From Antitrichia curtipendula (lineage: Eukaryota; Streptophyta; Bryopsida; Hypnales; Leucodontaceae), in contig OX579641.1 of the NCBI GenBank assembly GCA_951230915.1, positions 19,694,254 to 19,758,253 on the forward strand: a stretch of DNA of 64,000 nt, written 5' to 3'. How positions within the stretch are numbered: position 1 is the stretch's first letter; the number at the start of each line of letters is the position of its first letter. Under the pieces are notes generated by a model. It searched no databases and was not told the origin of the DNA. It saw nothing but the letters and a program-made list of their open reading frames with translations. Shown piece by piece: positions 10,123-64,000 of the stretch. A program made the position numbers and the translations under genes.

Positions 10123-10577
10123 CCCTTAAATGCCAGGCTCATTGCCATGGAAATCAATTTGTTTTGACACCATGTGAATTGTTGGATTAAAATAATGCAA
10201 AAGCATTCATTGGAAGACAAACTATTGTAGATGATCTTTCTTTTTTGCACAAAATTGGGAGGATGAATAGTTGCACTAAATCTGTCCTACAAGGAGAGAT
10301 TATTTGTCATTCATTAGCCAAAAAACATCCATGGCGGCGTTTAAGGGTTAAACGATGGGCTCATTGCCGTGGAAATCAATTTGTTTTGACACCACGTGAA
10401 TTGTTGGATTAAGATAATGCAAAAGCATTCATTGGAAGACAAACTATTGTAGATGATCTTTCCTTTTTGCACAAAATTGGGAGGATGAATAGTTGCACTG
10501 AATCTGTCCTACAGTGAGGGAGAAATTCTTTGTCATTCATCAACCAAAAAACGTCCTTGGCAGCGTGTATGGGTTAA
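10119..10577 (+). mobile_element. Tandem pair of ~222-bp TTAA-ended elements
   Basis: Two copies of a ~222-bp unit (10136-10357 and 10358 to about 10576, roughly 95% identical) lie head to tail. The outer ends are TTAACCCTTAAATGCC and GGCAGCGTGTATGGGTTAA. At the junction, GGCGGCGTTTAAGGGTTAA reproduces the right end. The second unit thus sits directly on the TTAA of the first, by insertion into the target site or by duplication. Confidence 0.75.
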
Positions 10578-18829: not shown

Positions 18830-19247
18830 TTAAGGTAGGAGGCTCTGAAATCACTCGGGCATTAAGAACCGCCTCTATAAATGGCTCTTGAATGGAATGA
18901 GGTGATCTTGAAATGGAACGAAGTGATCCTTAAACTGACTGCAATAGTGCTATGAATGAATTAGAAAAAAAGGGGTCCCAGCCAATCATCGGCTTTGTTT
19001 TTTCCCATCTTGCAAGTGAGCAGTTTATGGAAGACCTAGGGTCACAAATAGGGACCTACAATACATCTCCTTTGAAAATTCATAACTAATTCAATATTGC
19101 TCAAAAAAAATATGAAACCACTTGTGTTAGATTCCTCGTCTATTTTTCTATCTCTGAAAAATGAATTAAAAATACTACCGACCAAGGAAGCATATGAAAA
19201 AGGCAGATCAGCCCTTAGATGGGCGATTCAAGAGCCTCCTACCTTAC
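18830..19247. mobile_element. ~415-bp foldback with GGTAGGAGGCTCT ends
   Basis: TTAAGGTAGGAGGCTCTGAA at the left pairs with TTCAAGAGCCTCCTACCTTAC at the right. The left flank is TTAA, the right TTAC. Inside, AAATGGCTCTTGAATGG and AAATGGAACGAAGTGATCC-like units repeat. A related left end (TTAAGGTAGGAAGTCC) occurs at about 13634. Non-coding. Confidence 0.6.
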
Positions 19248-19701
19248 CTTATTGTGAGCAACTGCTCTAGGGGCGCCGTTTCAAGCTTTTAGGCACATGA
19301 TGCATTTGGATGTCCCTACCTTATGACGTTAGTAGAGTTCCACACACGGTCCGTGTTTTGGAGATGCTCTGTCCATTAACTACATGCTTTACAAGTTATG
19401 AACAGTAGTACGGTAGTGTAGTATTAGTGCTGTTCATGTTATTAGTCTGGGTAAATAATTACACTCAAAGGGACAGCTCTCCTGTAGTTCCGTCTCTGCA
19501 GGGCCTCCCATCCAATCATTAACGTCCAGCTGTCTGTCCCTCCAAATTCGCATCACTCTCCCCAGTCAGGAAAAGGCCGGCACGTCTAAAAGTAACCAGC
19601 AATGCCCTCTCCACCAATTACAGGGTGTCAGCAAGGCAGACAGCACCCAAAATTAGGACTGATCTGCATCGAAAAATTGCACAAATTAGTGGTGACCACA
19701 A

Positions 19702-21029
19702 AAAAAATGTTTTTTCGATACTTCTCTAAGTTTTAGAGTAGATTCTAACTCCCTTTCAGAAATCCTTGCTCATGATAGATAGTAAGAGTTTAATTTCAGC
19801 AATCAGAGCCTAATTTTGACAACCAGAGTCTAATTTCGAAATCAGATTTTCACCTAATGTTACAAAAGACCCAAATCAGCCCCCAGCAACCTCATTTAGT
19901 TCCCACAGCAATCAAAATTCGACCAAGCAGTGGTGACAACAGAACTGTGAGCTTCAACTGCATGCTAGAAAAAAATTCTAGATATACATGCTGTTCTTGG
20001 TAGCTTTGCTCCCAACTTGAATACAACATAAACTAGCACTTATCTCCAATCTCTGTAGAAGACAATATCTAGCACACAATTGATACTACAAATTTCATGT
20101 ACAAAGATTTGTTCATGATTGCTAAATGCAAGAAGAAAGCTTGTTGCGTTGGACGCCAGCTTCTCTTGCCCATAAAATCGTTTTTGGAGTAAATTTTTGA
20201 AAAAAAATTCCCAGGAGGTGGTAACCCTCACCTGTACCCATGCCAACCAGCAAACAATTAGTGTGCCAATAGATGTATACGAGGTGTCTGCAAGTTACCA
20301 CAACTTGTTATCGTTATTTCACCAGAGAAAACTTTATCAATCAGACTCCTAGATCTGATGCAAAAAAATTGTTCACAAAACTATTGCCATAATTTTGCTA
20401 CAAGATCCACCACCTGTTGGCCGCTGTTCTGAGAACCCAACACCATTTCGTCACCCAATGTTTGAGTAACCCACTTGACTGTACTAGAGCTTAGCAACCA
20501 AATGGATGTTTGATTTGGTTTGTGTTGCATAAACTTGAAAAAATTATGTAACTCCCGCCAAGATGTTTGAACTTAGCCTGGTAAAGGCTAGCTTGAAATT
20601 GCACAAAAGTTACTATTGGTTCAGCCCACAACTTGCTGGCATCCTTAACACAGCTCTAAATGGCGTTGTTAAAGCCTCTGTCCACCATGCCGTCAATTAT
20701 TTCGAAATTTGACAGCACAACTATCTCAGGAGAGATCCAGTTGTGATATTACTTGCCAAATTCACTTATTAGTGAGAGCAATGTGTCAGCAACTTAATGC
20801 TAGATTGTTTCTAATCAGATCAAGATGGTGTAAAATTTGTAAATTATTTTTTGTAATAAATCTCAGATTTTGAATAAGCTCTAGATGTATAACACTCATA
20901 TATATTCACATTTAGTGTGGAAGAACATGTCATTATAATCTATGTATTGTAACAACGGTAGACTTTTTTATAAAAACCTAGGAGTGTAACCTTGGAATTT
21001 GAGTCTAAAAAAAGAAAAAAAGAAAAAAA
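19702..21029 (-). repeat. Terminal direct repeat, left copy (3' relative to the element's coding strand)
   Basis: It starts AAAAAATGTTTTTTCGATAC and ends AAAAAAAGAAAAAAAGAAAAAAA on the plus strand. Against the right copy I found one substitution (20270 region, GATGTATACG versus GACGTATACG) and one T insertion in a T run near 20963. Near-identity implies a recent insertion or gene conversion. It contains a 68-codon ORF on each copy with no recognisable product. Confidence 0.93.
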
Positions 21030-21044
21030 AAACCCACCACCACC

Positions 21045-21105
21045 CTTGGTGTGACTGCTCTCAGTAGGAGTACTTGATGTACTCCTTACTGAGGAGTACA
21101 CCAAG
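21045..21105. promoter_or_regulatory. Strong hairpin between RT stop and 3' repeat
   Basis: An outer stem CTTGGTGT/ACACCAAG encloses an inner stem CTCAGTAGGAGTAC/GTACTCCTTACTGAG with a single bulge and a TTGAT loop. It lies just downstream of the reverse transcriptase stop in element sense and occurs once, not in the terminal repeats. Candidate roles are an RNA 3' structure for template recognition, a ribozyme or a terminator-like element. The canonical hammerhead core (CUGANGA ... GAAA) was looked for and not seen. Confidence 0.7.
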
Positions 21106-21156
21106 CTCATACACAAGCTTTTTTCCTTTTTTCCAGACATGTAGATGGGTAATAAA

Positions 21157-23330
21157 TTACCTTAGTACTTTGAGAAGCAACTGTAGATCAAATTTGATTC
21201 CAGGGAAGGTATTTTCCTTCAGGAATTTGGTGATGTTGTTCAAGAGCCTCTGTCTCTGAAAACCATTGCTTTGCAATGTGGTAATCAGAGCCTCCAGTTC
21301 GTTGTGTACCGCCTTGATATTACTGGACAGGTACAAGATTGGTACTGCTTGAGATATAGCAATGCTATAAGATTGTCGAATTGGCCTATTTGACCTGAAT
21401 TGAATATATTGGGAATACTGAAATGGAAGATCTCGACGTTTGTCAAACTTAGCCGTTTGAAATTCGCCCGAGTTGTCATCTTTGATCTCAACATCTAGGT
21501 TCATAAAATGTGCCTTGATGCCTCTGAGAGGGTCATCGCTTGCAAAACCTGTGATCTCACATTTGATTTCCAAAACATCCAATGGATATATCCAATATGG
21601 ATTGTCCTAGGTTCGCTTTTGGTTGGGGTCTAAAAATTGCCTCGCAGCTGAATTATTGATCCAACAGAGATCGTCTATATAGTGGTATGAGTGTTTAAAG
21701 TATGTCATGATCTGGCTTATACCTAGGTTGCCTAACCTTTGCATGAATTGAATTTCAAAGTGCAACAGGTATAAATTACACCAAAGCGGTGAGCAGCTGA
21801 ATCCCATTGGGATACCGAGTGACTGTGTCCAGACTCGATCGCCTAAACCAACGTAAGAGTGGTTCATTAACCATGTATATAAACCAATTAATTGTTCCTC
21901 TGATAATGGAAAAAAATTTCCATATGTAGGGCAGCTGGTATTCCAGGTCGCATGCGCAGCATTGCCTGAAGTATCCACTCTAATCCATATTTGAGGATTT
22001 GACCAAGGATGTTTCGACCGTTCTTGTCGAAACCCAAGGCGGATAATGTGAGCTATAGCATCTACTAAATTATCCTTTCCATGTAATGGGATGGTCTCGT
22101 AGCAACGAGTGATATCCGCAACATAGATGTTTGAAATTCTTTCAGGAAGATTCAGTGCTACTTCTATAGCTGAATTCACAAGCCAGAACAACGAAGTGTC
22201 TGCCTTGAGAAAATTTATGTATCCTGTATGAACTGTAGCCGCCCAATCTTTCACTTTATCCAAAATCAGCATTGTGGATATAGTTAGCATATGGGCTAAG
22301 TTAGAGTAGACTGTGCGAAAAGCATTCGTCAATCATCTATACTTGTTTTTATGGAGCTTATACGTGGCCATCAGGTATGGTAGGGAATTGTATGTCACAC
22401 ACAGTTCTGGGATAATATCCTTTAGAGAAGCTGTGACAACTTCGATCATTGTAGCTCTTGATAGCCAGCAATTATTTTCACGGCATGGTGAAAAATCTGA
22501 GCTCATCAGTCTTTCCAAAGCCAACAAGCGTATGTGCTTTATACAAATAAAGCATATATTGTTCGAGGCCTTGTCTAAGCCTGAGCAATAGAGGTTTTCC
22601 GTAATCCATTCTACCTCCTTTTGGACAACAGGAACAGAGAATAGGTTTGGTTGTGATGACCGAAAACCAAACTTGTTTTCATTTCTGGCTTTTTTCAGGC
22701 GAGCTAAGCATAAAATCCTAACCCATTCTCTAGCTTCGATCACTGGAAAATCATTAGATTCCAGACCTAAAGCATTGACAACTTGTGAAAAAGCATCGAG
22801 AATAGTTGCGATACATACCCCAATAGCCGTGGGTTTAAGAGGTATGTGGTTTAACCCCATCTTTACTGCCTTTCGTAAATCTGCATTTTGCAGAAGCTCG
22901 CAACTCACAGTTCAAACATGGACCTCCAAAGCAGCTGTACTGGTGGTCTCCTGCGAGGTCAGCGGGTCCAATAATTTCTTGAACCATTTAGCTGAATTGC
23001 ACAGACATGCTTTAGAAACATCAAACACATCTTTGAAAGCAAAGTTTTTGAAAACGAACGTTGGCTTATAGAACATCGTTGCTAGACTATCGTGATATTG
23101 CCAAGCGAATAATAACTCTTGTACCAAGGGAACAAGGTGAGAAAAATTGAACTGTATCATCATTTCTTGAAACAGTTGTTTCATATTGATCCATTCCATA
23201 GCTCTTCTAGGATATTTAACAATAATAATACCCGTAGCTTTAGGTTTGTTCACCCTTTGCAAGACTTTTCGTCCAACCTGGTCGGAAGTCAAGATCCGAG
23301 AAATTTCTGTGCACACAACATCAAACTATC
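21157..23330 (-). pseudogene. Reverse transcriptase, Penelope-like, one frame with three in-frame stops
   Basis: Four consecutive open segments (23316-22912, 22908-22333, 22332-21607 and 21582-21157) share one reading frame and are separated only by stop codons: TGA near 22910, TGA near 22334 and TAG near 21605. Together they span about 720 codons. RT landmarks are YKLHK before the second stop, motif A ADITRCYETIPL (codons 72-83 of the third segment), motif B GIPMGFSCSPLWCNLY (173-188), motif C YIDD (218-221), and a thumb-like region with FQYSQYIQFRSNRP and YSIAISQAVPILYLS in the last segment. The catalytic aspartates are present. The TGA after KYR sits where the flanking pattern suggests a Trp. 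As it stands the copy cannot make full-length RT without readthrough. Confidence 0.85.
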
Positions 23331-23357
23331 CACTTATAAGAAACTGATAGCTATTGG

Positions 23358-25136
23358 TTAGTCTTCGTTTTCATTAGCAAAGCTCAGGGCTTTGCGCTTG
23401 AGAGGTGACTCTGAGACTACTTGAATACGGCTAGTTGTAGAGGTGCCGGTATTCTCCACAGAAGCTGGACCGCCAGACTGTGGTCTATCACTGTTCCGGT
23501 CTGCAGTGTCTGATCCAAAAGAATCGCAGATGCTCATAACGGAAAACGCAGGTACTGTATTTGGTGTCCTAGGAGGACATTGCGCTTCTTTGTTCCACGG
23601 TGAGTGTCGTTTAGACTGATTGGGACTTTGGCCAGTGACGTTAGAGGTTTTATTGAACCTCTGCCAGTTTGGTCCATTGTTCCAATTCTGCCCTGGAGAA
23701 TTGTAATAATTGTTGCCACGACCTCGACCGTAGCCACGTGAATTACCTCCATTACCCCGGCCACGTCCAGCGTTGTTACTGCTTGACGGAGGAGTCATAG
23801 TTTTCTGCCGCTTGGCTGAAGGTGCTAATGATGATTTGTCCGGATTGGCGATGGACCAACTGGCCGGCTTCAGTAGGCGTTCAACCTGCTTATAGCCTGG
23901 GAGTTGTGCATTATCTTTGAACAGAGGACCATCCAGATTCACTACTAGCTGTAGAGCGCCTTCGCAAATCCATTTTCTTGAGTGCATGAAGGAAACATGG
24001 CACTTGATCGCTAGTGATCCTGCTTGATGAAGCCAAACCAGGAATGCACTAAATTTCGATCTGAGTGACGGGTGAGGTGTATCTTCAAAGAATCGGTCCA
24101 AATGATTTGCCATGAACCATACCGCATGATCCCACCAGATCATTGAACCTGCACAGCCCATACTAGCGTTAGGCGCACAACTGCATTTCATGTATGGTCG
24201 TTTGCCATTCCATAATTCCTGCATGTGTTTGTCACGCCTATGCTTGTCTGTAGGGGGGTCGATTTTGCATTGCATTTTTATGCTATCTGTGGTACACTTT
24301 GTATGATCGAAGGAACACAGACTGTACGCGTTGCTAATTGAACTAGCTGCTGTACTCATAGCTCGGTTATTAACCGCAGACTCTCTGCATTCCTTCATGT
24401 CACTTGCTAAGAGTCCGCCCCAGATTCTCCAAACAAATGGAGGAATCGATGCTAGCAGATTAATGTTACCCACTTGCCACACTCGGTGGTCACAGTTGAT
24501 TAACATGTCCTCGACTGTGCGGGGAGGTGTAAATGGAATAGCCAATCTTTTGCCCGAGGCAATAAGCTCCGCTTCCTCTTTCTGCTTTTGCGTGCCGATG
24601 ATCAGTTCCTGCAAGTCCTCGATCGCAGTCCGTTCCCTTGGCTCCATTATCAAACCCTCTAAAAAAGGGTGTGAGATAATCGATGCCACCTCATTCCCTT
24701 TCTGGCTATTGGATAATTCCAGATCTTCCTTGTTATTTGCGGCGCGAATAGCCACCTCTACTGAGATAGCATCTCGCTGGGATCCCGCATATTCCTCGGC
24801 ATCCTGCGAGATCAATTCCTCCAAGAACGCATGCAGCTCTTTTAGGCAAGTTAAGCCCAGTCCTGGCGTCTTTCCGTTGGCTACTTCAAAGACTCGCGTC
24901 CACTGTGACAAATCCAAGGTGCTAAGAATTAGCGGTGACTCACCATCTTCTCCGTTGTTTTTTATAGTTTCCGCATCTGTTTCTTGGATAAACGTATGGA
25001 TTTCGGTTGGCTGAATACTAGCCAAAGTAGCTTGGATGATTGGGATAGGCGGTGGCAAAGGCAAATCATAGCCCATTGCTTGTAGATCTGGATGCCATAC
25101 TGGCTCTTTGATGAGTGACTGACACAGAAAAATCAA
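23358..25136 (-). CDS. Retroelement ORF1, 592 aa, RG/RGG-rich tail
   Basis: One uninterrupted ORF begins 75 bp inside the 5' repeat and ends just before the RT frame, which is in a different phase. The N-terminal part is acidic and helical-looking (PGLGLTCLKELHAFLEELI). The middle carries a compact Cys cluster (KCSCAPNASMGCAG, about residue 315) and W/H-rich segments (MIWWDHAVWFMANHLDRFF). Residues about 448-495 are RG/N-rich (AGRGRGNGGNSRGYGRGRGN), typical of RNA-binding tails. A Ser/Pro/Lys-rich end follows. I do not recognise the family. By position and composition it is probably a Gag-like RNA-binding partner of the RT. No CCHC knuckle is seen. Confidence 0.7.
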   Translation of the reverse strand: MIFLCQSLIKEPVWHPDLQAMGYDLPLPPPIPIIQATLASIQPTEIHTFIQETDAETIKNNGEDGESPLILSTLDLSQWTRVFEVANGKTPGLGLTCLKELHAFLEELISQDAEEYAGSQRDAISVEVAIRAANNKEDLELSNSQKGNEVASIISHPFLEGLIMEPRERTAIEDLQELIIGTQKQKEEAELIASGKRLAIPFTPPRTVEDMLINCDHRVWQVGNINLLASIPPFVWRIWGGLLASDMKECRESAVNNRAMSTAASSISNAYSLCSFDHTKCTTDSIKMQCKIDPPTDKHRRDKHMQELWNGKRPYMKCSCAPNASMGCAGSMIWWDHAVWFMANHLDRFFEDTPHPSLRSKFSAFLVWLHQAGSLAIKCHVSFMHSRKWICEGALQLVVNLDGPLFKDNAQLPGYKQVERLLKPASWSIANPDKSSLAPSAKRQKTMTPPSSSNNAGRGRGNGGNSRGYGRGRGNNYYNSPGQNWNNGPNWQRFNKTSNVTGQSPNQSKRHSPWNKEAQCPPRTPNTVPAFSVMSICDSFGSDTADRNSDRPQSGGPASVENTGTSTTSRIQVVSESPLKRKALSFANENED

Positions 25137-25210
25137 CCATCAGTGAGTAAGGGTTAACGATAAGGAGAAGAATCCATGAGAGATTCACCATCTCTCAAAG
25201 GATGGAGGTT
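25137..25210 (-). promoter_or_regulatory. Short leader between 5' terminal repeat and ORF1
   Basis: 74 bp containing a small inverted repeat (GAGAGATTCACCATCTCTC). It does not begin with a recognisable complement of a tRNA 3' end, which argues against standard LTR-retrotransposon priming. Confidence 0.45.
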
Positions 25211-26539
25211 AAAAAATGTTTTTTCGATACTTCTCTAAGTTTTAGAGTAGATTCTAACTCCCTTTCAGAAATCCTTGCTCATGATAGATAGTAAGAGTTT
25301 AATTTCAGCAATCAGAGCCTAATTTTGACAACCAGAGTCTAATTTCGAAATCAGATTTTCACCTAATGTTACAAAAGACCCAAATCAGCCCCCAGCAACC
25401 TCATTTAGTTCCCACAGCAATCAAAATTCGACCAAGCAGTGGTGACAACAGAACTGTGAGCTTCAACTGCATGCTAGAAAAAAATTCTAGATATACATGC
25501 TGTTCTTGGTAGCTTTGCTCCCAACTTGAATACAACATAAACTAGCACTTATCTCCAATCTCTGTAGAAGACAATATCTAGCACACAATTGATACTACAA
25601 ATTTCATGTACAAAGATTTGTTCATGATTGCTAAATGCAAGAAGAAAGCTTGTTGCGTTGGACGCCAGCTTCTCTTGCCCATAAAATCGTTTTTGGAGTA
25701 AATTTTTGAAAAAAAATTCCCAGGAGGTGGTAACCCTCACCTGTACCCATGCCAACCAGCAAACAATTAGTGTGCCAATAGACGTATACGAGGTGTCTGC
25801 AAGTTACCACAACTTGTTATCGTTATTTCACCAGAGAAAACTTTATCAATCAGACTCCTAGATCTGATGCAAAAAAATTGTTCACAAAACTATTGCCATA
25901 ATTTTGCTACAAGATCCACCACCTGTTGGCCGCTGTTCTGAGAACCCAACACCATTTCGTCACCCAATGTTTGAGTAACCCACTTGACTGTACTAGAGCT
26001 TAGCAACCAAATGGATGTTTGATTTGGTTTGTGTTGCATAAACTTGAAAAAATTATGTAACTCCCGCCAAGATGTTTGAACTTAGCCTGGTAAAGGCTAG
26101 CTTGAAATTGCACAAAAGTTACTATTGGTTCAGCCCACAACTTGCTGGCATCCTTAACACAGCTCTAAATGGCGTTGTTAAAGCCTCTGTCCACCATGCC
26201 GTCAATTATTTCGAAATTTGACAGCACAACTATCTCAGGAGAGATCCAGTTGTGATATTACTTGCCAAATTCACTTATTAGTGAGAGCAATGTGTCAGCA
26301 ACTTAATGCTAGATTGTTTCTAATCAGATCAAGATGGTGTAAAATTTGTAAATTATTTTTTGTAATAAATCTCAGATTTTGAATAAGCTCTAGATGTATA
26401 ACACTCATATATATTCACATTTAGTGTGGAAGAACATGTCATTATAATCTATGTATTGTAACAACGGTAGACTTTTTTTATAAAAACCTAGGAGTGTAAC
26501 CTTGGAATTTGAGTCTAAAAAAAGAAAAAAAGAAAAAAA
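25211..26539 (-). repeat. Terminal direct repeat, right copy (5' relative to the element's coding strand)
   Basis: Matches 19702-21029 at an offset of 5509-5510 bases with two observed differences. If it acts as a pseudo-LTR, the promoter for ORF1/RT would lie here, reading leftward. Confidence 0.93.
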
Positions 26540-26542
26540 GAA

Positions 26543-26571
26543 ATATATATATATATATATATATATATATT
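26543..26571. repeat. (AT)n microsatellite at the element edge
   Basis: About 14 AT units directly abut the purine-rich end of the right terminal repeat. It may be the insertion target or a product of insertion. Confidence 0.9.
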
Positions 26572-26613
26572 ACTTAGAAAAGGACTGGCTGGACCGACCA
26601 CATCATAACATTG

Positions 26614-28107
26614 TTAACCCCTAAAGGTTTTTGACTATGTTTTCACAAAAAACGCTCCCAAATTGCCATTTCTAGTACAAGTACCAAATTTTGGAAAAAA
26701 AACATTTTTGGACACATGTAACCGTGTGATCTTGTAGTAAACTAGTTTGAGAAGATGTCGAAAATTTTTAGAAATTTCCACCGTGTAGATTGCAAGAAAT
26801 TAGCATTTGAAGTGACAAAAATCCTTTTTTTGTCCCTGCGAAAAACCGGGCAGCTGCACTTCACATGGTCACATTTGTATGAAAAAATGTCCAAAATGGT
26901 GGTAACTCTTTGGATTCATTCTTCAAATCAAGTTAGCTACATGCTTGAAAATTTTCAGATCATTTGGAATTGTACAACATATAGGAAAAAAATAGTAAGT
27001 AGAAAGAAGTAGAAAATGATTCAAAACACTAAATTGTTAAGGATTTAATTATGGAATTGAAAAATGCCAATCTAAACGACTGTAATGTTGTAATAAACAA
27101 TCTGCACCTTGTGTTTATATTTTTTTCCAAAAATATTGAAAATTGAGTTAAATAAAGGACTTCAAAGTTTATTTTAGAGTAGAGATTCCATAACTACCCG
27201 CAAACTACCCACAACTAAAATTCCTCATAACTTTCATCTCATAAATCAAAGTGGAATGATTCAAAGCTTTCCTTGTGCACATAAATCTAGAGAACCAATT
27301 TCAAATTTTTATTTCTCTAGCCCCTAAGCGCTCAAACGACCATTTTATGGTCGCTACCCGACTTCGGGCAGATTTTTTGGGCAGAAAAAAACTTTTTTCA
27401 ATTTTATTTTTTTCAATTTTTTAAAAGATTGGATTGTCTTTCAATATTTATATTCAAAACTAAGATCGCTACGGTCAAACAAAAACTATAAGAGAAATAG
27501 CACAAAGAGTCTAGTATTGCCTAGTGTTGAAAAACTTACTATTTGGGGAAAGTGTTGGTGTTTTCATTACTGGATCTTATGCATTTTTTCACTAATCAAT
27601 AGAAACCACAATTTTGACCAATCAAAAAAAAAATCAGTTGCTAAAGATAGAAATTGTATTTTTGGTGAATTTTTGAAGTTATATCTTCAAAATTCATTTG
27701 AAGAGAATCTAAAAATAATTTTATAATTTTGACCATACGGATATTTTTTTCTTTTTGTGCTTCACATTATCTATTTTAATGCAAACTTCAAAAATGTTGT
27801 AGAACTTATATTTTATAACACATTTGTGTTTTGTCCAAACCCCTTGGGCTTTTAGGGGCTAGAAAATGATTTTTAAAGAAGTTTTTTTTGCTGCCCGGGC
27901 TGCCCGCCGAACAATGAAAACTTCATATCATACCATAACTTTTTAACCATGTGGTCAAAAGTTATGAAAATTGTTGGGCCCTAAAGCTACTCCTCGGGCA
28001 CATCTTATGTGAAAATTTCAAAGAAAAAAAACAAAAATTCCATTCGTGGTGCGCTGCCCAAAAACGCTATGTTGTCAAAAAACGGTGTTTGGTCCTTTAG
28101 GGGTTAA
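26614..28107. mobile_element. 1.5-kb TTAA-flanked element, host of a nested element
   Basis: The ends are TTAACCCCTAAAGG at the left and CCTTTAGGGGTTAA at the right, inverted, with TTAA at each edge. The interior is AT-rich with no transposase. It is split by the CTAG-flanked insertion 27317-27862. Its arms are homologous, in reverse, to 4835-5755. Confidence 0.8.
27317..27862. mobile_element. Nested 546-bp element with CTAG edges
   Basis: CTAGCCCCTAAGCGC at the left and GGGCTTTTAGGGGCTAG at the right form inverted ends like those of the TTAA family, but the target is CTAG. The 4835-5755 copy shows the unoccupied site. No protein is recognisable; ORFs inside are AT-rich noise. Confidence 0.78.
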
Positions 28108-49651: not shown

Positions 49652-52600
49652 CTACTGAAGTACTCGAAGACCCTCGAAATCTGAATCTCTTCCTGCTGCT
49701 AGAAATTCAATCTCTGGCCTTCCAAATGTTGTTTCTCCACGTCGTCCTCTCACCTCCGTCCCACAGACAACCTTCCAGTCTCCTCCTCTACTTCTTTTCC
49801 TTTCCAAGTCATCTGAAAAAAATACTTGCTGACACTGACTGGGAAATGCAAAACAATTTGCCCCTACTGGTAAGCAATTTGCAAAATTTGCAACACTGAA
49901 CCCATACTTGTCACGAACTACATTGGCATTTGTTCCACCCATTTTTGCTTGTACCCATGAACAGACCAACACAACACAACAATGGCTGCGATAATCCAAC
50001 TCCAAAATCTCCTAAATCCAACCTACATATTCAGCATTCTCCCAATCTTGTTGTTCATTTGCATTCCTACCTCAACTACGGCGAAGTACAGAAGCAGCTA
50101 TGGCACTATCACAAGTGACTTTCTCCTCTTTAGCACTCTGCATGCACAAGTGCATTCCATGAGCATACATAGCTCTATATGCTGTCGCTTGTCTTTCTGG
50201 AAGCTTCGAAGCCTCAATAACGTCTAAACTTGGTCCCAATGGTCCTTCTGAAGCCTCCAACACCTGCAATCTCAACCACTCTGCAAATTTGGGCAAATTC
50301 TAACTACCTTCTGGATATGGTACACAGTTATGTCGGACACCACGACGAACGTAATCCCGCCTGAAATTCTCTCGAAGTGTTTGTCTTTCTCTACAGACGT
50401 CGCTGTACTTCCTGCTTCACAAAATAAACAACGCCAGCAAGTTCCGTTACATGCACCATTTGAAATGAACATGACGTTATCGTAGCTTTTCCACAGAGTT
50501 ATTCCTCTGTCACCATTTTCAATACGTCTTACGTTTTCCACATGACAACTGCAACAACATATACACTCTACCTCACACAGTGCCTGTTCAATATAACAGA
50601 CTTATCATTTTTTTTTTCTTTTTAATTTGTATTATCAAAAAATTCTAAAAGGACAAATAATCTATCCTCTTCCATGTTCAACACTTCTGTGAACTATTCC
50701 GAACATGAACTACTACCTTAACCATTTGGTGCCTCTTTTGACATACATGGTTCACGTTATTAATCGACATAAACAATACTTACTGCCTCCAATGCTCCAA
50801 GTCCACCGAATTTGAAAGCACAAAATCATGTGCCCATTGCAAGAATTGATCTGACATTTTTCTGGGCCATCCACTTCCTTGTACTACTTTGTCATTCATC
50901 CTCTGGTCTTCCTTGTCATCCCAAACTCGACGGCTTGTTCCTTGAAATCGTTGCAAGTACTCTGTGCAGTAGCCTAATGTTTCAGACATTGCGTACCCTT
51001 CTGCCATGCTAGCTTCCGGTCGAGCATACGTCCTCACGTACTCTTTCAAAGTTTTCATGTACCTCTCTATTGGATACATCCACAGACAATGAACTGGTCC
51101 GCATATGTATAATTCTTCTACTAGATGAATCATCAGGTGCGACATGATGTCCATGAATGTTGGTGGGAACTCCTTCTCCAACATGCATAATGCATCCGCG
51201 GCATCTGCCATGTCTGCATTTCTGCTTGAAACTGTGATTTCCCTAGCACAAAGTCTTTTAAACACCCGGCTTACCTTCATCACTGCTTGTCGAACCTCCT
51301 CTGAAAGAACAGATCGCAGAGCCAAAGGAAGTACCTGACAACACATCACTCTAAATTACAAATCTTTGCAAACAGTCTTCCATTCTCTCCTTCATTCTTT
51401 AAATCTCAATTTCTTTCAGCATAAAACAACACCTTAATCCCCATCTACTTGCAATAGTTTTCCATGAATCCATCCATATAGACATTGTCATTTCCCTCCC
51501 CTTTACAACATGTACTTGTTCTGCTCCATTCATTATAATGCCTCAAACATTGAATACATGCCTTCGTAACAAGCTTACAACCAAAGTACAATTCACTTAC
51601 TTGTTGCATAAGAACATGGAAATCATGTGACTTCATGTATCGTAGCTTTCCGTCCTCTAAGCACTTCTGAATAGCACCAACGTAGTTTGTAGGAGTTCTC
51701 AAATTCTTGATTACGTCCATCATTGTTGTCTTCTCTGTTGAGTTCAAAATGTAAGGAGCACGAGGCATGTGAAATTCATCCCTTCCATTCTCAGAATCTT
51801 GTAGCCATAACTCCGGTCTAATGCTCATACATTGCATGTCTTGATTGCTTCCCAACGAATCCTTCGCTCCTAATAGCGTTTTCGTCAGGTTCTCACACAA
51901 ATTTTTTTCACAGTGCATGGGATCTAACACATGCCGAATGAGCAAATCCTACAATGCACCCACATGAAGTTCTTCTGGGTTAGCACATACGGAAAAAATT
52001 CCCTTCTCCCGAATTTTATAAACTTTCATATCAAATGTATAAGACAAAATCCCTTCACAGTGCACGCTCAAAAAACTAGTTGCTGCACACATCATGACTG
52101 TCAAAAACCTGAAATTCAACATTGCATTTTTCTTCACTTCAAAAGCAATTTCGTCATATTGAATGCCTGAACTCATCAGTGACGTGCAGGAAAGGAACGA
52201 CATAAGATCCGCATCAACGTCCTTCCTTCTCAATTCCTTATTTTATATCAACACTGTCCAGTCATTTACAATAGTATGCTTACAAAAAAAAATACTTACA
52301 TATTACGCTTGTCCTCCCCAATGTTTCGTTCAAAGCACTTGAAATTAAACAACACCTACCTTCCGCCGTCTGAAACTGCTGTGTGCCATCTTCTCACAGC
52401 CCTCCGTGTAAAAAAGAATACACTTGTACCTAAACGAGCCACACTATGTTGTTTGCACTCTCCGTTTGCAAACAATTACTTGCTGCCACAAAGACATTCA
52501 AATAACTCTACTTTGGAAAACAGCAGTACACACTGGTTTGCAAGGTAGACATGAAAACTTGAAGCTCACCGTCCAATACGGAAGAATGTTCAAAGCAGAT

Positions 52601-54270
52601 TCCCGCTTCACTCCATGCTCGTGAACAGGATCTTCTTCAGCACCCTTTCTACCGCCTGCAGCTAGATACGCATCGCGTTCCTGACCACAACATCTTGTTT
52701 CCTCTCCAGTCATCCTCACTGGACTGGTTCTAACCTCAACCTTCCCATCAAAATTTAAACTCCTACGATACGGATGAACTCTATGTGTCCACCTTCGACT
52801 TCCGGTATAAACGAGCTTCCTCCCTTTTGCTTTCTTCTGAGCATCTAGGTTGTTCCCTGACCTTGCTGGTCTACCTTCTGTGTTTGGCCCACACACAGTG
52901 CATGCTCGATAGCCATGCGTACACAATCCAAAAATAAGACCATATGCAGGGTAATCAGATATGGTCCACATAAGAATACCTCTTAATGTGAACCACCGTG
53001 CACCTGCTGGTTTAGAGAAGTCTTGTGCAGGAACCCCTTTCCACAACACTAGGAACTCGTCAATTAATGGCTTAATGAAAACATCAATGTTTTCATTTGT
53101 GGGGGATAATTTTCCCGAAACTAAAATACTCAATTGAATGAAAAATTTCTTGGTTACCATGAACGGAGGCAAATTGTAGATGAGGACAAGCACTGGCCAT
53201 GTGGAATGACTGGTCGTGTTGTAAGCAAAAGGATTAACACCATCTAAAGACATTGCACAACGCACGTTCCTAGCATCCTCTCCAAATGACGGATCTATGT
53301 TGGTATCAATGTGTTTCCATGATGGGCTATTTGCAACAGACTTCATTACACCTTCTTCTCTCGTAGGATTTTGTGCATGGAATTGTAACATTTTAGCAAT
53401 TGCAGGCGAACGATACATGCGTTGTAACTTAGGAATCAAGGGAAAATGTCGTACTACTCTAGCTGGCACTGTATTGGAACCCGCTACGAATCTTGACCTC
53501 CCACATCCTGGTTTAGGGCATTCTTGCAAATCCTCTTCATCCCCACGAAACAGTACACAGCCGTTTGGACATGCATGGATTATGTCATAGTTCAAACCCA
53601 ATTTCTTAATCAATTTCTTCGCCTCGTAGTGACTGCTTGGCAGCATATTCCTTGCCGGCAGCAGAACAGTTGATAGGTACTTCATGAGTTCATCTACGTA
53701 AGCATTGCTTACGCCATGTATGACAGCCATGTTTATTAGCACAATTGTGGCTGAAATCACACTTACGTTTGTACCTCGGAACACCGCTCGTGTTGCTTGC
53801 TCATATAAGGCATCCATTGCCTGCACTGACTCTGAAAACACATCCTCCTCGGCCTCACATTCTTCAACGTTAGATATAGAGTCCCTTATGTCGTCCCCCT
53901 CAGCGAGAGCATCAAACAGTTGCTGTTGAATGTCATGGTAAGGGTCCATGTGCTCTGCATACTCTGTTCGATCACGTTCATCATCAAAGACATTGTCGGT
54001 TGAAATGGTTTCCCCCTCTGCATTCAACCATATGCCCTCCGCTGGGTATTCGTTAGGAGGATCGCCACCCAACATGGACCTCATAAGAAAAGGATCCCTC
54101 TTGTTCAGCCGCAAATGTCCCTTGATTGTTCGAATGTCATAACGATGTCCCCCATGACATTTTGTACAAGGGCAACAATATGAGAAACATTCATGCTCTC
54201 TAGCAATTCGCATTTCGTTTTCAAATATTAAATCCTCCATAGGTATGTACAATGCCCGACCTCCAGACAT
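49652..54270 (-). CDS. CACTA transposase, TNPD/TNP2 type
   Basis: The 54270 ATG begins MSGGRALYIPMEDLIF, followed by the Cys/His cluster CCPCTKCHGG typical of the transposase-associated domain. Exon 1 (54270-52570, 567 codons) holds the Transposase_21 core (ACPNGCVLFRGDEEDLQECP, NVRCAMSLDGVNPFA, GARWFTLRGILMWTISDYPA, CTHGYRACTVCG). It joins in phase to 51948-51601 (LLIRHVLDPMHCEKN ... KSHDFHVLMQQ) and 51334-50784, a DUF4218-type domain (FPPTFMDIMSHLMIHLVEEL, GPVHCLWMYPIERYM). Downstream pieces near 50530-50080 and a DUF4216-like piece (DKYGFSVANFANCLP) at 49652-50005 complete the gene, but their splice joins are uncertain. No stop interrupts the exons I could join. The family binds subterminal repeats and cuts CACTA ends in the nucleus. 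Confidence 0.85.
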
Positions 54271-54311
54271 TGTTTATGCTAACAGTCGAGGGTCAAACAA
54301 AGGCAAACTCT

Positions 54312-62341: not shown

Positions 62342-64000
62342 GACTTCTGGGGAACGGATCGGTATATCCCAAGATTCATACTGCCGAATTGGCTAAGCGC
62401 AAGAAAATCACATGGATTGTCAGTGTTTCTGGCTTATGTTGTTTCTTCTATATCTTAGGTTCATGGCAGAACACTCCTACTGACCTGCAATCAAATTCCT
62501 TTGGAGACCTGAAGCTTTACGTTCGCCTTGCAAATTAGAAGAGGGACTTGATTTTGAAGCTCACCATAGCTCATTGAGCACTGATACTGGTTCAAACTAC
62601 ACTACTTTCGAACCGTGTGACATGAAATTCAGCGAGTATACTCCATGTGAAGACGTTGAGCGCTCGTTGAAATATCCACGGGACAGATTGGTATACAGAG
62701 AACGGCATTACCCTGGAAAGGATGAACTGCTAAAGTGTTTGATTCCCGCCCCTGCTCGTTACAAAAATCCACTCCCATGGCCTCAGAGCCGAGACTACAC
62801 GTGGTTTGCCAACACGCCCCACAAGGAACTCACTGTGGAGAAGGCAATTCAAAAGTGGGTGCAGTTCCAAGGTGAGAAGCTATACTTTCCAGGTGGAGGA
62901 ACATTCTCAGCTGGTGGTGCTGATAAGTACATTGATGACATTGCAGCCCTGATTCCTCTCAATGATGGGTCCATTCAAACAGCGATTGACACTGGATGTG
63001 GGGTAAAGAGCAAATAAACTCAGCAAACCTGAATTATTGTAGACTAATAAGCTGCTATTAGTCTGAGTCTTCATGAGTTATGCAGTAGAACAGATTTGGA
63101 GACCACTTCAAATAAGTAGGCTGTCGTTTCATCATAGTTATGGCGACCATTTCCCTGATGTTGGTCATGGAGTGTATTACTATCCGCTGTCTTCGTGTTT
63201 AAAGTTTTCATGTCTGGTTCTGTTTTCGGATAGACATGCCTGCCTAAGTTTTTCTTTTGCCTGCTTTTAATGTCTTTTAAAATCTCTCTTATTATGGCGG
63301 TTAGCTTCTAAATGTCATGTACACATTGCTGAATTTCAGGTTGCAAATTGGGGCGCATACTTACTGTGAAAGAAAGTGTTAACCATGTCGTTTGCACCAC
63401 GGGATACACACGTCTCCCAGATTCAATTTGCTTTGGAGAGAGGTGTTCCCGCAATACTGGGAATCATGGCTGAGAATCGCATGCCATACCCCGCACAATC
63501 ATTTGATATGGCACACTGCTCTCGTTGCCTTATCCCATGGGCCAAATTTGGTAATTCACATCATTCATGTTCCCGAAACATGATCTAATTATGGATTTTT
63601 TGTTTTTTACTCATGTGCCTGCGTTCCTTTGCCATGGGTGAGCCGTGTACTTTGGGTCGGAGATGATATTTAACGATGTTTGTTTTGTGGATCTGCAGAG
63701 AGTTTGTACTTGATTGAAGTCGACCGTGTGTTGAGGCTTGGTGGTTTTTGGATACTTTCTGGGCCACCAATTAACTGGAAAACCCACTACAAGGGTTGGC
63801 AAAGGACACAAGAGGATTTAAAAGCTGAGCAAGATAGTATCGAGGACAGAGCTCGGAATCTTTGTTGGACGAAATATGCCGCGAAGGATAATCTTGCCAT
63901 CTGGCAGAAGCCTTTGAACCACGTTGAATGTAAGCAGGAGCGTCTGCGCGACCAGAACTTGCGCCCGCACATATGCAATCGTGCTGAAAATCCTGACATG
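62342..64000 (+). pseudogene. PMT-type SAM-dependent methyltransferase (QUA2/TSD2 superfamily), broken, continues past window
   Basis: Exon 1 (62342-63002) encodes a cytosolic tail and signal-anchor segment (ITWIVSVSGLCCFFYILGSW), then after a frameshift at about 62490-62515 DFEAHHSSLSTDTGS, YTPCEDVERS, YRERHYPG, LPWPQSRDYTWFANTPHK and FPGGGTFSAGGADKYIDD. Exon 2 (63340-63550) has VANWGAYLL followed at once by TGA, then [20 protein letters not shown] and [17 protein letters not shown]. Exon 3 starts at 63699 (LIEVDRVLRLGGFWILSGPP). In the family these are type II Golgi membrane proteins implicated in pectin methylation, with motif I near TGCG. The frameshift and stop argue for a pseudogene. 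No initiator ATG precedes exon 1 in frame. Confidence 0.85.

Follow-up and report, generated by a model that had tools for sequence, protein, structure and literature searches.

How does an element with the outward form of a long terminal repeat (LTR) retrotransposon, in which no integrase or endonuclease is recognised, come to be inserted at many places in a plant genome? The question is raised by a locus in a stretch of 64,000 nucleotides from Antitrichia curtipendula (GenBank assembly GCA_951230915.1, contig OX579641.1, positions 19,694,254 to 19,758,253), called the window below. Its minus strand carries an element whose interior, with a first open reading frame (ORF1) and a reverse transcriptase (RT) frame, lies between two direct repeats. 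A first-pass annotation, made from the letters alone, proposed a plant lineage of endonuclease-less Penelope-like elements (PLEs), or of otherwise distinct elements, with an extra ORF1. We hold with moderate confidence that the element belongs to a multicopy, endonuclease-less family of the Penelope class that has an RT near that of Naiad elements, LTR-like repeats and a separate ORF1, and that inserts into or beside simple repeats. This is supported by the two sense reading frames of an intact sibling, the amplification of one subfamily, the orientation of (CTT)n at insertion sites, the likeness of LTR pairs, tandem arrays and a covarying hairpin at the junction of 5' LTR and interior.

The direct repeats are as long and as nearly identical as the first-pass annotation described them: their alignment of 1329 columns shows a single mismatch (20274/25783) and a single 1-base indel (20964/26473). 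Their ends are T-rich and lack TG...CA, whose absence it had also stated. They are the element's own ends, since sibling elements share the LTR-interior-LTR structure. No further copy was found in the 64-kb window; the other copies come from a search of 400 Mb of genome in 303 contigs, which revealed a multicopy family with other elements that have LTR pairs of their own. With the window LTR as query (40 of 111 candidates scored), at least 75 match stretches were obtained, ten of which cover at least 1088 of the 1329 bases at 93-100% identity; among the eight long matches outside the window, six were examined and all six are solo LTRs, with no interior within about 1.5 kb. The RT gave 64 match stretches, 22 of them free of internal stops, and elsewhere a single stop may be terminal.

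One subfamily has been amplified recently. Its four copies, two on contig C1 and one each on C3 and C6, share 99.93-100% identity over about 4.3 kb and 99.7-100% across a further 2.3 kb. The two LTRs of every copy match the query at 100% identity across 1190 bp, and the 40 of 220 candidates scored included no further full-length LTR of this subfamily. Each of the four is a complete, single LTR-interior-LTR unit, and in three the flanks outside the (CTT)n are foreign. Within an element the LTRs are 99.62-100% identical (ten elements; the C6 pair is 100%, and reads 98.1% in another alignment because that alignment ran into the neighbouring element), whereas between different elements of the window family the LTRs share 95.4-97.9% identity, so the two members of a pair are made alike in each round or soon after. 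Tandem arrays occur as well, on C2 with a period of 5640 bp (99.98% identity) and on C9 with an offset of 5480 bp (99.8%). The region G000:C9:1.485-1.539 Mb holds eight RT and eight ORF1 matches head to tail at a spacing of 5.5-8.2 kb.

Judged by sequence and structure matches, the RT is of the PLE/telomerase kind. The motifs ADITRCYETIP, GIPMG and YIDD, which the first-pass annotation reported in a two-ORF interior, are present in the window frame, which is interrupted by in-frame stops at 22912-22914, 22333-22335 and 21607-21609. A protein search with this frame returned 162 proteins at E <= 0.001, and in the 120 listed (46-78% identity) the three patterns recur in 115, 113 and 117, respectively, and together in 107. 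The Penelope-like assignment stands as to type and shifts as to kin, since the nearest relatives among the matches found are proteins that we take to be Naiad-type (some bear the source name Pinctada imbricata) rather than classical Penelope. The CxC domain, which was detected in the RT protein, the RT itself and the thumb all align to them, and the alignment begins after the Naiad endonuclease; none of the 120 listed relatives reaches 850 aa. About 90 residues separate motifs A and B'. A predicted model of one relative (P0001, its first residues missing) matches telomerase structures in a fold whose parts are presumably TRBD, RT and CTE. By sequence, no telomerase was listed at E <= 1, and the 50 listed BFVD matches are mostly RNA-virus polymerases and polyproteins. 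From the single LTR substitution, about 0.8 substitutions would be expected in ORF2 since insertion, which makes it probable that most of the three stops are older than the insertion; a broken RT between near-identical LTRs would fit movement in trans or a later conversion of the LTRs.

ORF1, the extra RG-rich frame that had been proposed, is real in that its 593 aa stay open from 25139 to 23358 on the minus strand. A protein search found 28 matches, four of them on contigs of the same sizes (5241, 5556, 4437 and 6439) as contigs of listed RT matches, which already hinted at joint movement of the two genes. Within the genome itself, an ORF1 match lies at most 1.2 kb upstream on the same strand for 49 of the 64 RT stretches, and for 45 of the 46 that are at least 1.8 kb long. 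No kinship of ORF1 to Naiad was detectable, its predicted fold gave no structural match and the RG-rich tail is predicted at low confidence; the product probably binds nucleic acid. As an observation apart, two equal-score ORF1 matches on opposite strands, about 2 kb apart, form an inverted pair at G000:C8:21702685-21707780.

The enzymes that the first-pass annotation failed to recognise are not recognised by Pfam profiles either. Integrase, RNase H, protease, recombinase and GIY-YIG had no match in the window pieces (E <= 1), in 24 RT relatives or in 29 ORF1 sequences, the last giving single weak matches to unrelated families only. The intact sibling L039 (C8:5.52 Mb; LTRs 99.62% identical) has frames of at least 150 aa of 595 and 739 aa in sense and of 234 and 226 aa in antisense; at E <= 10 its ORF2 gave a weak RVT_1 match and two weak matches to unrelated families, and its ORF1 nothing, so that no hidden endonuclease or RNase H emerged from either frame. 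Tyrosine recombinase, the mark of DIRS elements, is likewise without a match in the window pieces, the RT relatives, the ORF1 sequences and this sibling. The endonuclease-less part of the proposal is therefore supported, no endonuclease being recognised by Pfam. Hammerhead ribozymes are common, not universal, in PLE terminal repeats; none appeared in an Rfam scan of window positions 19000-27500 at E <= 5.

Many relatives in the genome sit in or beside simple repeats. Both ends were resolved for eight CTT-type elements: four young copies, two from a second subfamily and two single ones. All eight have (CTT)n on the coding strand at the 5' edge, and in six CTT units also lie beyond the 3' edge. 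The 5' edge is in view at ten CTT-type loci, and it carries (CTT)n at nine of them and the GAA strand at none. The clearest case is the insertion on C6, where a related element's interior 3' end with (CTT)n lies upstream and (CTT)n followed by a relative's LTR lies downstream; in the array locus L037 an unbroken (CTT)n connects these two flanks (93.6% identity over 140 bp and 99.7% over 2198 bp). This pair of loci is one empty-site comparison for insertion into (CTT)n in one strand orientation. In five of ten T-rich-type copies (the window copy, L003, L004, L022 and L039), an (AT)n of eight units or more lies by the 5' edge, the edges of L021 and L022 being judged from the TTTTTTTC tract alone; at loci L010-L020 and L023-L028 the 5' edge is outside view. 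In the rest of the window, (AT)8, (CTT)5 or (GAA)5 occurs in 0 of 56,840 stretches of 60 bases, and TRF, at a score of at least 40, lists no dinucleotide array in the window besides (AT)14. At another T-rich locus (L005, G000:C8:20.10 Mb), a window-family solo LTR stands head to tail, with its T-rich end, against the LTR of an element from a different subfamily.

The boundaries between LTR and interior carry conserved structures. Of 30 ORF1 loci, 21 were examined, and in 19 a GGTGA-loop hairpin lies upstream of ORF1; in L028 the loop, judged by eye, is AGTGA, and L016 begins inside ORF1. The resolved 5' LTR ends lie within about 40 nt of this hairpin. Across 16 distinct rows, pairing is kept in 96.1% of cells and seven of the eight pairs change on both sides, giving a covariation of 0.983 vs 0.310 +/- 0.047 when shuffled (0/500), with a maximum of 0.220 for slid versions. 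At the other end, GGGTGGTGGNGGG precedes the 3' LTR in eight of nine stretches searched, and beside it the seven stretches with enough upstream sequence form a long hairpin of -33 to -45 kcal/mol, folded with context and without a shuffle control. The lack of a tRNA-like primer site, also claimed from the window, holds more widely, with TGG within 6 nt after the LTR in none of six elements. The CTT-type LTR ends in CTTCTT, which matches its target. The (AT)14 at the 5' end, the hairpins and the related genome copies are additions to the first-pass annotation (Table 1).

Table 1. Parts of the element and its flank, in window coordinates
Feature	Position	Strand	Remarks
5' LTR	25211..26540	-	starts (TTTTTTTC)n, ends ...CATTTTTT; repeated part 25211-26539
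3' LTR	19702..21029	-	99.85% identity to 5' LTR
(AT)14 microsatellite	26543..26570		abuts the element's 5' end; TRF
GGTGA-loop hairpin, 8-bp stem	25177..25197	-	just downstream of 5' LTR; conserved, compensatory changes
ORF1, 593-aa open frame	23358..25139	-	helical N part, Cys-rich middle (RPYxRCxC...GC), RG-rich tail; no Pfam family
ORF2: CxC domain, telomerase/PLE-type RT, thumb	21157..23325	-	three in-frame stops; intact genome relatives exist
Long hairpin, 3' end of interior	21046..21105	-	-36.5 kcal/mol folded with upstream context; no shuffle control
G-rich tract GGGTGGTGGTGGG	21033..21045	-	just before 3' LTR; polypurine-tract-like position

Outside the element, Pfam finds Methyltransf_29 and tnp2/DUF4218 in the window, which presumably point to a plant host and so support that part of the first-pass annotation. 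The former is a piece of a Methyltransf_29 gene at 62484-63017 (+) (PF03141, which we take to be a plant family). The latter are transposon remains at 50780-54273 (-) with Transposase_21/tnp2 (PF02992) and DUF4218 (PF13960), presumably of CACTA type. A 222-bp unit stands twice in tandem at 10136-10577 (91% matches).

How might such a family move? We suggest a cycle in which a particle of RT and ORF1 product would bind the GGTGA hairpin, and a 3'-OH at a break in a microsatellite (the GAA strand of a broken GAA/CTT tract, or a broken AT tract) would pair with the CUU-ending LTR RNA and prime cDNA synthesis at the boundary of LTR and hairpin. The LTR cDNA could then transfer to the other LTR, or to a tandem RNA, and be extended through the interior, after which the free cDNA end, again (GAA)n, may anneal across the other side of the break. 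Rounds cut short would leave solo LTRs, and repeated transfer, or insertion into an element's own (CTT)n, would give arrays. Priming, strand transfer and the roles of the proteins are inferred here, and a possible parallel for repeat-guided priming is offered by endonuclease-less PLEs and terminons, which are reported to use telomeric repeats. Taken to its end, the cycle would make this a telomerase-kin RT with an LTR-type life cycle and no integrase, RNase H or endonuclease of its own, in which a hairpin stands in for the tRNA site, a broken end for the primer, strong-stop transfer is kept and repeat pairing serves for integration. We consider it rather unlikely that the family forms such a separate class between telomere-attached PLEs and LTR retrotransposons.

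Several observations weigh against our reading. The elements at C5:22.9 and C218 lack CTT units beyond the 3' edge, and L038, in the C9 array where another LTR end precedes it, lacks (CTT)n at the 5' edge. The 5' (CTT)n of the other elements belongs partly to the element itself, because the LTR begins with (CTT)n at the junction of interior and 3' LTR, and L037, the empty site, is a related array rather than an allele. The resolved CTT elements occupy eight sites but represent only four lineages. Five of ten T-rich-type copies (L005-L008 and L021) are without (AT)n, the window copy has a microsatellite on its 5' side only, and a target duplication is not definable within a microsatellite. The hairpin was picked from the same sequences used to count covariation, solo LTRs may simply be LTR-LTR recombinants, and, no RNase H domain having been found, an LTR-type cycle would need the host's. 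The family may also be kin to the telomere-associated endonuclease-less PLEs.

The alternative to which we give most credence, as a tentative possibility, is that the repeats are ordinary Penelope pseudo-LTRs, produced from the RNA of tandem copies with an internal start of reverse transcription near the pseudo-LTR junction and no strand transfer of the LTR type. Tandem arrays do exist, and the GGTGA hairpin likewise lies just after the 5' repeat; in an Anolis PLE, reverse transcription starts internally in vitro, in an AC-rich stem loop near the pseudo-LTR/ORF junction, and AT-rich DNA is cut (PMC11167929). The four recent copies, however, are complete single units, three within foreign flanks, and each insertion would therefore have needed a newly made tandem template.

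It is unlikely, in our estimate, that the family is a member of the published endonuclease-less PLEs (Athena and Coprina, and those of Selaginella and conifers) that sits at interstitial microsatellites instead of telomeres. Such elements are described from Selaginella, Pinus and Picea (PMC9033089), and the family may overlap with them; they are also named for rotifers, fungi, protists and plants (PMC3846280). They have been tied to chromosome ends (PMC3846280, PMC12477314), and terminon RNAs are reported to have ends with telomere-complementary repeats (PMC12477314). Here, by contrast, the resolved copies and the window copy lie inside contigs, at CTT or AT repeats and with unrelated or related-element flanks, so that no telomeric location was seen among them, the telomeres themselves not having been searched. 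The RT, moreover, matches Naiad-type proteins with their CxC domain, in a comparison that takes the endonuclease-less PLEs by description only.

Less probable still is a helper, a Naiad- or Chlamys-type element of this genome whose endonuclease would act in trans and nick the microsatellites. Naiad-type proteins do carry GIY-YIG; Naiads reportedly prefer microsatellites, and Chlamys elements are said to occur in spike mosses and algae. We regard as very improbable a Gypsy, Copia or DIRS element that has lost its integrase and is moved by that of another. It would account for the LTR pairs, the solo LTRs and the G-rich tract before the 3' LTR, but the RT matches telomerase structures and Naiad-type PLEs, the intact sibling shows neither protease, RNase H nor integrase (nor the recombinase that the first-pass annotation had also named as a refuting find), no TGG start follows the LTR in six elements, the ends are not TG...CA and the sites are often microsatellites. 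A segmental duplication with no relation to the element, another refuter it had named, is ruled out as the source of the repeats by the ten genomic copies of the repeat, six of which are solo repeats at other sites, and by the other family elements with repeat pairs of their own.

If our reading holds, this family, recently amplified at interstitial microsatellites and with no recognised endonuclease, would offer a natural system in which to test break-primed, repeat-guided reverse transcription, and its insertion orientation, LTR-hairpin junction and four near-identical copies yield sharp predictions. It hints at how elements without a DNA-cutting enzyme of their own might spread, and suggests a route by which CTT and AT repeats attract large insertions in a plant genome. 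We found no literature on LTR-bearing, endonuclease-less, microsatellite-homing PLEs within a coverage that left out most subscription papers and Craig et al. 2021.

Set beside known systems, the family shares with LTR retrotransposons the LTR-interior-LTR plan, near-identical LTR pairs, solo LTRs and the tract before the 3' LTR, and differs in the enzymes, repeat ends and primer site just discussed. PLE RTs have been called the closest known eukaryotic relatives of telomerase (PMC12632851), and the fold predicted for P0001 is shared with TERT; TERT is a single host gene acting at telomeres, whereas this is a multicopy mobile element with ORF1 and LTRs, its 64 RT stretches mostly ORF1-linked. 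Genes of the rvt type are non-mobile and encode an rvt-type RT with loop 2a; the present family is multicopy and mobile. With Athena, Coprina and the plant endonuclease-less PLEs it has in common a PLE-class RT without endonuclease and an association with repeats; interstitial CTT and AT microsatellites, LTR pairs and solo LTRs set it apart in a comparison by description only. The Anolis Poseidon PLE (PAc) has direct terminal repeats, tandem units and RNA structure near the pseudo-LTR/ORF junction, as here, and differs in its C-terminal GIY-YIG endonuclease and hammerhead ribozyme. Of the traits of the Penelope-like class at large, the PLE/telomerase-kind RT, terminal direct repeats and tandem arrays are all present, and GIY-YIG, absent in its endonuclease-less members, was not found. 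Naiad and Chlamys elements have an N-terminal endonuclease joined to the RT by a CxC domain, an insertion-in-fingers domain in the RT and a bias towards microsatellites. In our family that endonuclease was not found, and a separate ORF1, LTRs of 1.2-1.6 kb with conserved hairpins and a plant host distinguish it from Naiad-type PLEs; with these it nonetheless shares an alignable CxC domain, RT and thumb and the preference for microsatellites, a Naiad trait also observed here, with the exceptions given above.

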